From contig JAKQOG010000108.1 in the NCBI GenBank assembly GCA_029565395.1, forward strand, positions 62,001 to 126,000: a DNA stretch of 64,000 nt, in the 5' to 3' direction. This document shows positions 45,206 to 49,380 of this stretch, one piece after another (the stretch's first letter is position 1; each line of letters starts with the position of its first letter). The notes beneath the pieces are model-generated. The model had not been told where the DNA came from. It saw nothing but the letters and a program-made list of their open reading frames with translations, and did not search any database. This DNA is from Candidatus Hydrogenedentota bacterium. GTDB taxonomy: Bacteria; Hydrogenedentota; Hydrogenedentia; Hydrogenedentales; CAILVY01. Both the position numbers and the translations under genes were made by a program.

Positions 45206-46510
45206 TCACAGGCTCCACCCGTTGTACATGGGACGTTTGAGCATGCTGTTGGCTTCGTCCTGTCCAGGGAAACGTTCAGTCTTTGGATCCCATTTAAGCT
45301 TCTTATGCGTGCGGGCTGCAATATCCGCGAGCATCCCAAGGATCGAGGCCTTATGGGCGGCGTCCACGTCCGAGACCGGATCCTTGCGGGAACGGATGCA
45401 CTGAAGCAGGTTGTTTCCATGATGCGTTGAGTCGGTAAGCGCTACGTCGGTGTCTTTGAATGCAACCTTTAACAAGGATTCGGGTTCGGCCCAGATGCCT
45501 GAGCGGTCCACGTGGACCCAGCCCGCGTCGCCGATAAAGCGGCATCCCGATTTCCGCTGGACGCTGTCGCTGAACAGCATCTTGAAGTCCCCGGCATACG
45601 TGAATGTCGCGTTCCACATGTCGACGTTGTCGGTGAAGCCCTCGTTTCGATAGGTTGCCGTGCATTCGAGTTCGAAGGAGTCATCGCCGATTTTTGGGCA
45701 GCCCCAATTGGCAATATCGAGATGATGAACGCCCCAGTTGGAGATGAATCCGGTGCAGTAATCGAAAATCAGGTACCAGTCCGGCCAGGCCACACGCCCA
45801 GGATTGTACGGCTTGTCCGGGGCGGGTCCGCGCCACATGGCCCAGTCGAATCCTTCGGGCACAGGCTGGGGATCAAGCGAGCCCTTGTATTTGGGGCGGT
45901 ACTTTGGGCCTTCCGTGGCCACCTCAACCGTATGGATCCTGCCGAGGTATCCGTTCCTGGCCAGGGTGCATGCAAGTTGAAAATCAGGCAGTGACCGCTG
46001 CCACGTACCTGTCTGAAACACACGTTTGGTTTCCCGGACCACGTCGCGGATGCGGCGGGATTCCTCCACGGATACGCCCAGGGGCTTCTCACAATACATG
46101 TCCTTGCCCGCCTTTGCCGCCGCGATGGCGATCAGAGCATGCCAGTGGTCCTGGACCGCGATCATCACGGCATCAATATCTTTGCGTGCAAGCAACTCGC
46201 GATAATCGCCGTACATGGTGCAACCGGTGTCTCCGTATTGGGCATCGACAAGCTCCTTGGCTTTTTGACGGCGGTCTTCATACGTGTCGCATACGGCGAC
46301 AACCCGGCAGTCGGGAAGGCCGAGGAACTTGTTCATGTTATCCGTGCCCATGCTGCCCACGCCGATGCACCCCAGGGTAATCTTGTTGCTTGGCGCGCTC
46401 GCGCCCTCCGCACCGAAAACCGAGCAGGGCACAATGGATGGCAGACCCAGCGCTGTACCCACAACAAGAGAATGCTTCAGAAACTGGCGGCGATTAGTTC
46501 TGGAATTCAT
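45206..46510 (-). CDS. Tat-exported Gfo/Idh/MocA-family oxidoreductase
   Basis: A 434-aa protein. The N-terminus has a twin-arginine signal (NRRQFLKHSLVVG). The Rossmann fold follows: GCIGVGSMG, then the EKP motif in MYCEKPLG and the substrate region FISNWGVHHLDIANW. The C-terminal region contains RPMYNGWSL. Such Tat-exported members carry a tightly bound cofactor and act on sugars in the periplasm, often next to TIM-barrel isomerases, as here. AAAGGAG lies 5 nt before the ATG. First gene of a two-gene operon with the epimerase/ceramidase fusion. Confidence 0.92.
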   Translation of the reverse strand: MNSRTNRRQFLKHSLVVGTALGLPSIVPCSVFGAEGASAPSNKITLGCIGVGSMGTDNMNKFLGLPDCRVVAVCDTYEDRRQKAKELVDAQYGDTGCTMYGDYRELLARKDIDAVMIAVQDHWHALIAIAAAKAGKDMYCEKPLGVSVEESRRIRDVVRETKRVFQTGTWQRSLPDFQLACTLARNGYLGRIHTVEVATEGPKYRPKYKGSLDPQPVPEGFDWAMWRGPAPDKPYNPGRVAWPDWYLIFDYCTGFISNWGVHHLDIANWGCPKIGDDSFELECTATYRNEGFTDNVDMWNATFTYAGDFKMLFSDSVQRKSGCRFIGDAGWVHVDRSGIWAEPESLLKVAFKDTDVALTDSTHHGNNLLQCIRSRKDPVSDVDAAHKASILGMLADIAARTHKKLKWDPKTERFPGQDEANSMLKRPMYNGWSL

Positions 46511-46775
46511 GGAAACTCCTTTACCGTTGATCTCCTCGTGCTACAAGAAGCACTCGGCGACATTGAAATTAGTCCGGTTTGATCGCCTTTCTCCTTCGCA
46601 CCGCAGGTGCGGAAATACCTGCTGTCACACGCGATCATACCCATACTGCAATTAAATCATATCTCCTTATCAGGGTTCCATTGGAACATCTGACTTTCAG
46701 GAACGTGAGTCCAGATTCCAACGCCGTCCGGGCTAACCATGTCCTTCCCAAGAATTTATCGAACAGGGTCTTTAT

Positions 46776-46904
46776 CAGGCATTTGCGAAATAGGCCTTTC
46801 TATCTAAAAATTAAAAGATACAGGGTAAATTACTGGCATTGCACAGCCGAATCGTTGCTTTTTCATTTACCCAGAGGAGAAAAAGGCCTATTTCGCAAAT
46901 GCCT
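46776..46904. mobile_element. MITE-like element with 23-bp perfect inverted ends
   Basis: Bases 46777-46799 and 46882-46904 are perfect inverted repeats of 23 bp (left end begins AGGCATTTGCGAAATAGG). The direct repeat CTTTAT flanks the element (46770-46775 and 46905-46910), consistent with a target duplication. Nested arms GGGTAAAT (46823-46830)/ATTTACCC (46865-46872) allow a long hairpin. It encodes no protein. It lies between the Tat oxidoreductase and the PHP-protein gene, 15 bp upstream of that gene's -35 box. Confidence 0.75.
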
Positions 46905-46918
46905 CTTTATACATGTTC

Positions 46919-46947
46919 TTGCTATTTCTTGGATTTCTCAGTAAAAT
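46919..46947 (+). promoter_or_regulatory. Promoter of the PHP-domain protein gene, next to the MITE
   Basis: TTGCTA (46919-46924), 17-bp spacer, TAAAAT (46942-46947); 4/6 and 5/6 consensus matches. Leader of about 57 nt to the ATG at 47011. Confidence 0.5.
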
Positions 46948-47010
46948 TTGGGGTGAGGGTTGCCATATCATGCTGGAAATGAGCCTGTACAACGTACTGG
47001 GGAGGTTGGA

Positions 47011-49380
47011 ATGTTTGCGTGTCATCAAAGCGCTTGGCTGAGTCTGGTAATGGCTGTATTTGTAGCGATGCCCGCCGGTGCTTTCAGCAACATGACGCTT
47101 CAAAAGACAGCGGAGGGTGCAGCCGAAGGCGTGGCACCGCCCGCCGGTTTACAGTGGATCTATTTCGCGCATCATACCCACACGGACTACAGCGATGGCC
47201 GGGACACGGTTCAGAACCGCATTTTGGAAGCAGCGAGCTTTGGGGCGGACATTGTCTCGATCACCGACCACAATACGATGCTGCAATGTCATGATCCGTG
47301 GTTCATCGAACAAGACGGATGCATTCCGATGTGCGGGGACGAATGGGGTGGCATGGGCCGGGGGCATGCCTGTGTATTAAACATGAGTGGGGATGATCCG
47401 CTCGATGTAATGCCCGACGGAACCTTGTACCCTCTGGACATCATGCTTCCGCAAATGCTGGCACGCGGCGGCACCATTTTTATCAATCACCCTTTCGACG
47501 ATGGAAATGGCTGGCCGGAGGGTTTTGCACGCGCGGGAATTTGTGGCGTGGGGGCGTGGACTACGCCCTTTCCGAACGCGGATGCCCGGGGCTGGTGGGC
47601 GGGCCATATCACCAATGGCCGCATCCTGGTGGCCATCGGAGAGAGTGACCATCACCTGGAAAAGATTCTATCCACCGCGATCAGCAATTCGCTGGTGCCC
47701 TGCAACTATGTGCTGGCGGCCAGCAAACAGCCCGCCGATGTTCAATCCGCCGTGAAAACCGGCAGGATATCGATCGCCGGATCGAAAGGAGCTGCGCGCA
47801 CGTTTGTGTGGTGTGATCAGGACGGTGACGGCGTGTATGAGACGCCCATGGGCACGAACATTGTCGTGACCCAGCCGAAACGGCTGCGTTTCCGGGCGGA
47901 AGTCTACGATGGCGCCGGATTTTTGGGAAATATCATGGTCTACTCGATGAGCGGCGGCATCAAAACCACCTTGGGCAGCGGCAGCCCCTGGCGCATCGAT
48001 TACGAAGCTGATGTCACGTCTGATACAAAGGACTTTGTGCGCGCCGAACTCAGAGGCGCCTTTGGCATTTTTCAGTCCCTCTCTAATCCCATCTACATCA
48101 ACTTTGCACCAACAGTAACGCTGACCGCTGATCCCGCGAATCCGGTAAGTGGTGCGATAGGGGTATCGGCTACGTTGAGCGCGGCGACGGCAGATTTTGG
48201 TGCGGACGACATTGCCGCAAGCAATGCAACCGTGAGCAATTTCACAGGCGGCGGCGCAAACTACAGTTTCACATTGACCCCCATCGCGAACGGTCTGTTC
48301 TCATGTTTCGTGCCGGCGGAAAGATTCTACGATGGTGTCGGCAATCCCAATCTGGCCAGTGCAACGCTCGCGCGCACCTATGAAGCCATCGTCGAAGGCC
48401 AGCCCGAAGGGATTGTTGAAGGAGAAGGCATGGCCGAGGGAGAAGGCGGACCGGAGGGCGAATTGGAAGGTGTTGTTGAAGGTGTTATCGAAGGCCAGCC
48501 CGAAGGGATTGGCGAGGGTGAAGGCATGGCCGAAGGAGAAGGCGGGCTGGAAGGCACTGGGGAAGGTGAATTGGAAGGCGCATCAGAAGGCATCCTCGAA
48601 GGCCAGTCTGAAGGGGAGGAGGAGGGTGTGCCGTCCGAAGGTCAAGCTGAAGGAATAATCGAGGGACAACCGGAAGGTTCTGTTGAAGGGGCACTGGAAG
48701 GCGATCTAGAGGGAAGTATCGAAGGGCAGCCGGAAGGGGGCGTGGAAGGCGAGGAGGAAGGGATTGTCGAGGGCGAATTGGAAGGGTTGCTTGAAGGTGA
48801 TCTGGAAGGTGTCCTCGAAGGCCAGCAAGAAGGCCAAACAGAAGGTGGAGCGGAGGGTTATACCGAAGGTGTAATAGAGGGGGTCGAAGAAGGCATTGAT
48901 GAAGGCCAACCGGAAGGCCTGATAGAAGGCGAAGCTGAAGGCTTGCCCGAAGAAGGGGCACCGGAGGAGGGGCAAGTCGAAGGTATCATGAACGAAGGGG
49001 ACACGGAAGGCGTACCTGAAGGCGAGGAAGAAGGCATAGTCTCCGAAGGCTTGCCGGAGGAGGGCCAAGCCGAAGGCGAAGGCTATCCGTTCCACACCGC
49101 CGATCAAGACCTTGACAACCTCATCAGCCTGTCGGAATTGCTGCGGGTGATCCAATTCTTCAATTCGAACGGATTCCATTGCGAGGCTGGCACGGAAGAT
49201 GGTTATGCGCCCGGACCGGGCGATCAAAGCTGCGCCCCGCATGCCAGCGACTACAATCCGCAGGATTGGCAGATAAATCTGTCCGAGTTGCTGCGCATGA
49301 TCCAGTTCTTCAATTCGGACGGGTACCATGCTTGCCCCGGCGAAGATACGGAGGACGGTTTCTGTCCCAAGCCCATGTAA
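47011..49380 (+). CDS. Secreted PHP-domain phosphoesterase-like protein with a 230-residue EGE linker and dockerin-like C-terminus
   Basis: A 789-aa protein; ATG 47011 has GGGGAGG 5-11 nt upstream and begins a Sec signal ending in PAGAFS. The PHP fold follows: metal motif HHTHTDYSDG (about 55-64), then SITDHNTM, INHPFDDG and GESDHH. All metal-ligand clusters are present, so it may be an active phosphoesterase or polysaccharide-associated hydrolase. A beta-sandwich region (about 270-455) is followed by the longest EGE linker in the window, then the dockerin-like module with EF-hand loop DQDLDNLISLSE. Substrate unknown. The MITE lies close upstream. Confidence 0.83.
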   Translation: MFACHQSAWLSLVMAVFVAMPAGAFSNMTLQKTAEGAAEGVAPPAGLQWIYFAHHTHTDYSDGRDTVQNRILEAASFGADIVSITDHNTMLQCHDPWFIEQDGCIPMCGDEWGGMGRGHACVLNMSGDDPLDVMPDGTLYPLDIMLPQMLARGGTIFINHPFDDGNGWPEGFARAGICGVGAWTTPFPNADARGWWAGHITNGRILVAIGESDHHLEKILSTAISNSLVPCNYVLAASKQPADVQSAVKTGRISIAGSKGAARTFVWCDQDGDGVYETPMGTNIVVTQPKRLRFRAEVYDGAGFLGNIMVYSMSGGIKTTLGSGSPWRIDYEADVTSDTKDFVRAELRGAFGIFQSLSNPIYINFAPTVTLTADPANPVSGAIGVSATLSAATADFGADDIAASNATVSNFTGGGANYSFTLTPIANGLFSCFVPAERFYDGVGNPNLASATLARTYEAIVEGQPEGIVEGEGMAEGEGGPEGELEGVVEGVIEGQPEGIGEGEGMAEGEGGLEGTGEGELEGASEGILEGQSEGEEEGVPSEGQAEGIIEGQPEGSVEGALEGDLEGSIEGQPEGGVEGEEEGIVEGELEGLLEGDLEGVLEGQQEGQTEGGAEGYTEGVIEGVEEGIDEGQPEGLIEGEAEGLPEEGAPEEGQVEGIMNEGDTEGVPEGEEEGIVSEGLPEEGQAEGEGYPFHTADQDLDNLISLSELLRVIQFFNSNGFHCEAGTEDGYAPGPGDQSCAPHASDYNPQDWQINLSELLRMIQFFNSDGYHACPGEDTEDGFCPKPM
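48391..49083 (+). repeat. Long Glu-Gly low-complexity tract (EGE linker)
   Basis: About 690 bp of degenerate gaaggc-type triplet pairs encode about 230 residues made almost only of E, G, P, Q, V, I and L in EGxxEG steps. Antisense frames give artefactual Pro/Ser-rich ORFs. Similar but shorter tracts occur at 32242-32412 and 38976-39213. Confidence 0.85.

Follow-up and report, generated by a model that had tools for sequence, protein, structure and literature searches.

Bacterial MITEs, which are non-autonomous DNA transposons, are described in sections of a review (PMC10969869) as elements shorter than 500 bp, with inverted ends of up to 30 bp and stable stem-loop folds, that occupy AT-rich intergenic sites and whose target duplications are best preserved in young copies. 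The word Hydrogenedentota does not occur in that review (PMC10969869), and a literature search restricted to its best-ranked results yielded no report of MITEs in Hydrogenedentes or Hydrogenedentota. Excerpts of the paper on the hupL MITE of Candidatus Thiomargarita nelsonii, an uncultured host, describe a multicopy family for which ISfinder offered no likely parental IS family (PMC4853749). The 64,000-nucleotide stretch of DNA analysed here (the window) comes from a genome of the phylum Candidatus Hydrogenedentota (G000; 7.5 Mb, 290 contigs) and contains an element that an earlier note had read as MITE-like and 129 bp long. The element is real and the reading as a MITE stands, although its length, fixed by comparison of copies, is 130 bp. 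The element and its surroundings are as follows.

45206 to 46510, minus strand: divergent neighbour, a GFO/IDH/MocA-type oxidoreductase with a TAT-like signal (TAT match below cut-off)
46771 to 46775, no strand: target duplication TTTAT, left copy
46776 to 46905, plus strand: 130-bp MITE, the terminal C at either end counted (limits from 51 complete copies compared)
46777 to 46799, plus strand: left terminal inverted repeat, 23 bp, perfect
46882 to 46904, minus strand: right terminal inverted repeat, 23 bp, perfect
46906 to 46910, no strand: target duplication TTTAT, right copy
46919 to 46947, plus strand: TTGCTA-17-TAAAAT, a promoter-like site ahead of the downstream gene and not part of the MITE
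47011 to 49380, plus strand: downstream gene with a weak PHP-domain match, an Ig-like domain and Glu/Gly-rich repeats

The perfect 23-bp ends, found just where they had been described, sit inside 28-nt arms that are 93% complementary, and a 20-base end pattern allowing up to three mismatches occurs at two sites in the window against 0.01 expected. Comparison of the copies gives the termini as CAGGC...GCCTC, a terminal C on both sides interrupting the inverted symmetry by one base. The last base of the element is the C preceding the right TTTAT, and the C preceding the left TTTAT is a target base, there by chance; the flanking direct repeats previously given as CTTTAT are therefore present but one base too long, the duplication being the 5-bp TTTAT. 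C...C termini are retained in 40 of the 51 complete copies from the element's own genome and 11 deviate; copy L077, read in the orientation of its interior, carries a G in place of the C at each terminus. With a length below 500 bp the element contains no transposase gene. Among ORFs of at least 60 aa, the longest across it (46579-46944, 121 aa) spans the element and lies mostly beyond it, and another (46888-47103, 71 aa) overlaps its final 18 bp; both look like chance frames, in keeping with the lack of coding capacity already proposed.

The earlier note had suggested searching the genome for the ends, and searches with the whole element showed it to be multicopy. With the element and short flanks as query, BLAST returned at least 103 matches in G000, comprising at least 40 matches to copies (58-166 bases, 72-100% identity; the best 40 of 86 candidates) and a remainder in which one end of the element matched the other. 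A sequence-only profile built from 28 aligned copies gave at least 50 matches (the best 50 of 2117 candidates), and 57 distinct matches above 55 bits were counted within the 70 own-genome loci scanned. Several assembly contigs stop inside MITE copies. Since some of the 57 matches are partial copies at contig ends, possibly two halves of one copy, the true copy number is about fifty or more, with 51 copies complete and flanked by 30 bp on either side. Pairwise identity among the 28 aligned copies ranges from 63 to 99% (median 78%), a spread that suggests old as well as fairly recent rounds of expansion; the closest siblings of the window copy in this set are 97.7, 96.9 and 96.2% identical to it. 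Mean column identity in the same alignment is 94% and 95% at the two ends compared with 82% in the middle.

Exact abutting target duplications flank 25 of the 51 complete copies, measuring 5 bp in 17, 6 bp in six and 7 bp in two. When left and right flanks were re-paired at random 1000 times, the mean was 0.69 duplications and the maximum five. Duplications are present in 17 of the 19 best-scoring copies compared with eight of the 32 others; an exact duplication of at least 5 bp is absent from 26 copies, 24 of which belong to the lower-scoring 32. The duplicated bases are 73% AT, the 30-bp flanks 58% and the loci 47%. Neighbouring genes were assigned by a rough rule (ORFs of at least 100 aa, longest first) and are known as ORFs only. 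By this rule 46 of the 51 copies lie between two ORFs and four are bordered by an ORF on a single side; the remaining one, flagged as inside an ORF, is the window copy, in a 121-aa frame that has no support. Eleven of the 51 copies are overlapped by an ORF over 2-158 bp, the overlap exceeding 30 bp in four of them. Copies adjoin ORFs on either strand, in 23 co-directional, 19 divergent and four convergent gaps. Divergent gaps are generally longer, and so the imbalance of 19 to 4 (P=0.003, gap length not corrected for) may only reflect space.

We searched 68 genomes of the phylum, including one from the same genus as G000 (G001) and one from the same family (G002). Under stricter filters the profile matched four of these, namely G000, G002 and two genomes at E values of 0.005-0.01 that are probably chance. 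The end pattern, again with up to three mismatches, matched six, with 38 sites in G000, 29 in G002 and one in each of four others. Neither the profile nor the end pattern found the element in G001. In a collection of genome contigs, from which the element's own genome was possibly omitted, 15 of the 16 stretches matching the end pattern came from CALEDJ01, which is G002, and one from JAJRPE01 (G026, same order as G000); the latter may be a chance match, there being no partner end in its 7.9-kb locus. The end pattern had no exact match in a collection of viral contigs, and the element had no match in a plasmid collection.

At least two further MITE families in G002 share the end sequence of the window copy; they measure about 100 and 111 bp. 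Termini in the 111-bp family are mostly C...C, and 18 of 22 copies of the ~100-bp family have G...C; exact 5-6 bp duplications flank 14 of the 31 distinct copies at the G002 loci examined, a count that has no shuffle control. At one locus (L108:1354-1567, on contig C19 of G002) one MITE lies within another with a clean 6-bp duplication: the 111-bp element at 1415-1525 splits a ~100-bp element and has TTGATG on either side. Joined together, the two halves of the host align across the join with four undivided sister copies, two of which (L183 and L186) have a single TTGATG there and two a one-base variant. This is a direct empty-site comparison, and the nesting gives a relative order of transposition. 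A second cluster, at L105, holds three MITE copies within about 550 bp. Empty sites, which the earlier note had also proposed as a check, were thus found once in a related genome and for other MITE families, but not in G001, where the joined flanks of the window copy and nine other copies (10 searched of the 18 joined) had no match.

With multicopy dispersal, conserved ends, target duplications and one empty site (in G002) all observed, and with most copies lying clear of long ORFs, we regard the element as almost certainly a MITE, one whose clear presence among the searched genomes is limited to a single family-level lineage of Candidatus Hydrogenedentota. A rival reading is an immobile regulatory RNA (a hairpin, attenuator or terminator) that is conserved ahead of genes. 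It would account for the strong RNA fold (-51.6 kcal/mol, z -7.2), for five Rfam hairpin or snoRNA families matching 46500-47100 at E values up to 1 (the best, a microRNA precursor family, at 7e-5) and for the more frequent position of copies at the 5' than at the 3' sides of ORFs. However, 23-bp inverted ends give such a fold and explain the weak Rfam matches, all of which fall under their gathering scores (34.6 against 90 bits for the best), and the copies stand beside ORFs of either strand with target duplications. A rule-based scan found no terminator-like site within the element, and G001 retains the downstream gene and its promoter-like site without it. The earlier note had held that a lone genomic copy, kept by distant relatives as a terminator or RNA element, would speak against a MITE; instead we found many copies with inverted ends and target duplications, confined by the profile to four genomes of the phylum, two of them weakly matched. 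An immobile RNA element is accordingly very unlikely. Even less probable is a HUH-type (REP/RAYT-like) family of palindromic repeats. Its short inverted repeats, many copies and location mostly between ORFs would be in line with such a family, as would the failure to find a DDE transposase with these ends by PF01609 in two genomes, but the element's repeats are truly terminal and its target is duplicated over 5-7 bp. Such duplication is not an expected outcome of HUH transposition, which works on single strands.

A different question is whether the MITE has been recruited at this locus to set expression of the PHP-domain gene, as an upstream insulator, a protein-binding site or curved DNA. The gene probably starts near 47011, judged by eye from a ribosome-site-like stretch (GGGGAGG), its listed ORF beginning at TTG 46960; its PHP match, at 24.4 bits, falls just short of the curated threshold of 26.4. 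TTGCTA, the -35-like hexamer, begins at 46919, 13 bp past the end of the element and not 15 bp as first stated, which together with the bias of copies towards gene starts speaks for recruitment, and sections of the review record cases in which bacterial MITEs affect nearby genes (PMC10969869). Against this, no part of the promoter-like site falls within the element (0.9 sites of its kind are expected by chance across the 601 scanned bases), and the G001 orthologue (81% identical) has TTGCTC-17-TAAAAT ahead of the gene, under different upstream sequence and with no MITE. Upstream of the promoter-like site the G000 and G001 loci do not align, and no exact empty site is therefore demonstrable in G001. 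Because the scan detected no promoter-like or terminator-like site inside the element, a regulatory effect is unproven; the influence on transcription raised by the earlier note is possible, and recruitment we consider improbable. The simplest view of the window copy, inserted fairly recently beside a promoter-like site that was already there, is that it is a neutral passenger.

In the downstream product itself (46960-49380), long Glu/Gly-rich 'EGE' repeats occur along with a C-terminal stretch that holds two repeats like DQDLDNLISLSELLRVIQFFN, which we take to resemble dockerin-type or EF-hand calcium repeats. A distant relative, 40% identical, lies elsewhere in G000 (C99:12499-13494). An orthologue in another family of the order (L230; G012, C58:19471-20547) is 83% identical over the matched part, as close as that of the same-genus G001, which hints at gene transfer.

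The preferred reading, that of a MITE, implies a partner. A transposase made elsewhere in the cell would bind the ~23-bp ends (C-AGGCATTTGCGAAATAGGCC...), excise or copy the element and insert it in AT-rich, mostly intergenic DNA, where repair of a staggered cut would produce the 5-7 bp duplication. The earlier note had called the element non-autonomous and mobilised in trans. Copies, ends and duplications bear out the MITE, but its mobilisation in trans by a cut-and-join (DDE-type) transposase is something we infer, since the search turned up no transposase whose ends match. A partner would have AGGCATTTGCG ends; searching G000 and G002 with PF01609 only gave two elements in G000, none in G002 and no transposase flanked by the MITE ends. 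Both G000 elements (L197 on C35; L198, C217:137661-138569) have a DDE_Tnp_1 domain in open frames of about 610 aa, on which grounds they are presumably IS1634-like; inverted repeats of 20 nt (95%) surround the gene in L198, and those of L197 are 14 nt of related sequence. Their inverted repeats, of the type CCCAACTTCCGCAGTTA, are unlike those of the MITE, and both were rejected as partners. Members of the IS1634 family leave 5-6 bp duplications. On C107, two ends separated by 6.6 kb proved to belong to a pair of decayed MITE copies (one of them partial) around genes that by eye read as glutamate synthase; a pair 2.3 kb apart on C51 was likewise two MITE copies. The repeated ends AGGCATTTGCAAAACAGGTGTC in G002 are, among the matches listed, those of MITEs of about 100 bp.

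The best candidate for the partner is an unassembled repeat seen only at the ends of contigs C251, C265, C249 and C215. The last three have 140 identical bases in common, starting AGGCATTTGCGAAATAGGTGTCAGCC, and C251 stops 98 bases into a different sequence starting AGGCATTTGCGAAATAGGCC (repeat start C251:60164), so that both carry the same inverted-repeat start on unrelated interiors. The C251 flank, TTGAT, is the C265 flank read from the opposite side, which would fit a single element lying between them and flanked by a 5-bp duplication. The C251 interior occurs once in G000 and the other end three times, and these ends may therefore belong to different elements or to copies missing from the assembly. 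Neither contig-end sequence has a further match in G000, and the interior of the candidate repeat is thus absent from the assembly. From the end shared by C265, C249 and C215 a frame extends inward; 36 residues of it, used as a query, gave nothing convincing in the 68 genomes (best non-self E value 0.0096) and no match in plasmids or solved structures, and the candidate's end sequence had no match in plasmids. A more far-reaching possibility, to which we give low odds, is that the ends define an undescribed IS family restricted to Hydrogenedentota, with variable 5-7 bp duplications, whose unassembled autonomous copy (C251/C265/C249/C215) drives several MITE families in parallel across related genera. 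Finding the parent transposase would define the system.

These data document an expanded MITE family in an uncultured phylum. Every feature listed for bacterial MITEs such as Correia, MITEAba12, BrickBuilt, Chunjie and Nezha in the sections of the review (PMC10969869) is present in the element, whereas its end and internal sequences differ, having no plasmid match and, for the end pattern, no exact viral match; the named MITEs were compared by description only. The IS1634-like elements on C35 and C217 reside in the same genome as the MITE, but an IS1634-derived MITE would share ends with its parent and these two PF01609 elements do not share theirs with it. The hupL MITE is likewise a multicopy family of an uncultured bacterium, but in the excerpts of its description (PMC4853749) it has 19-bp ends and 10-bp direct repeats, compared with 23-bp ends and 5-7 bp duplications here. 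In conclusion, the element represents a new family among the bacterial MITEs, a well-known kind of element.
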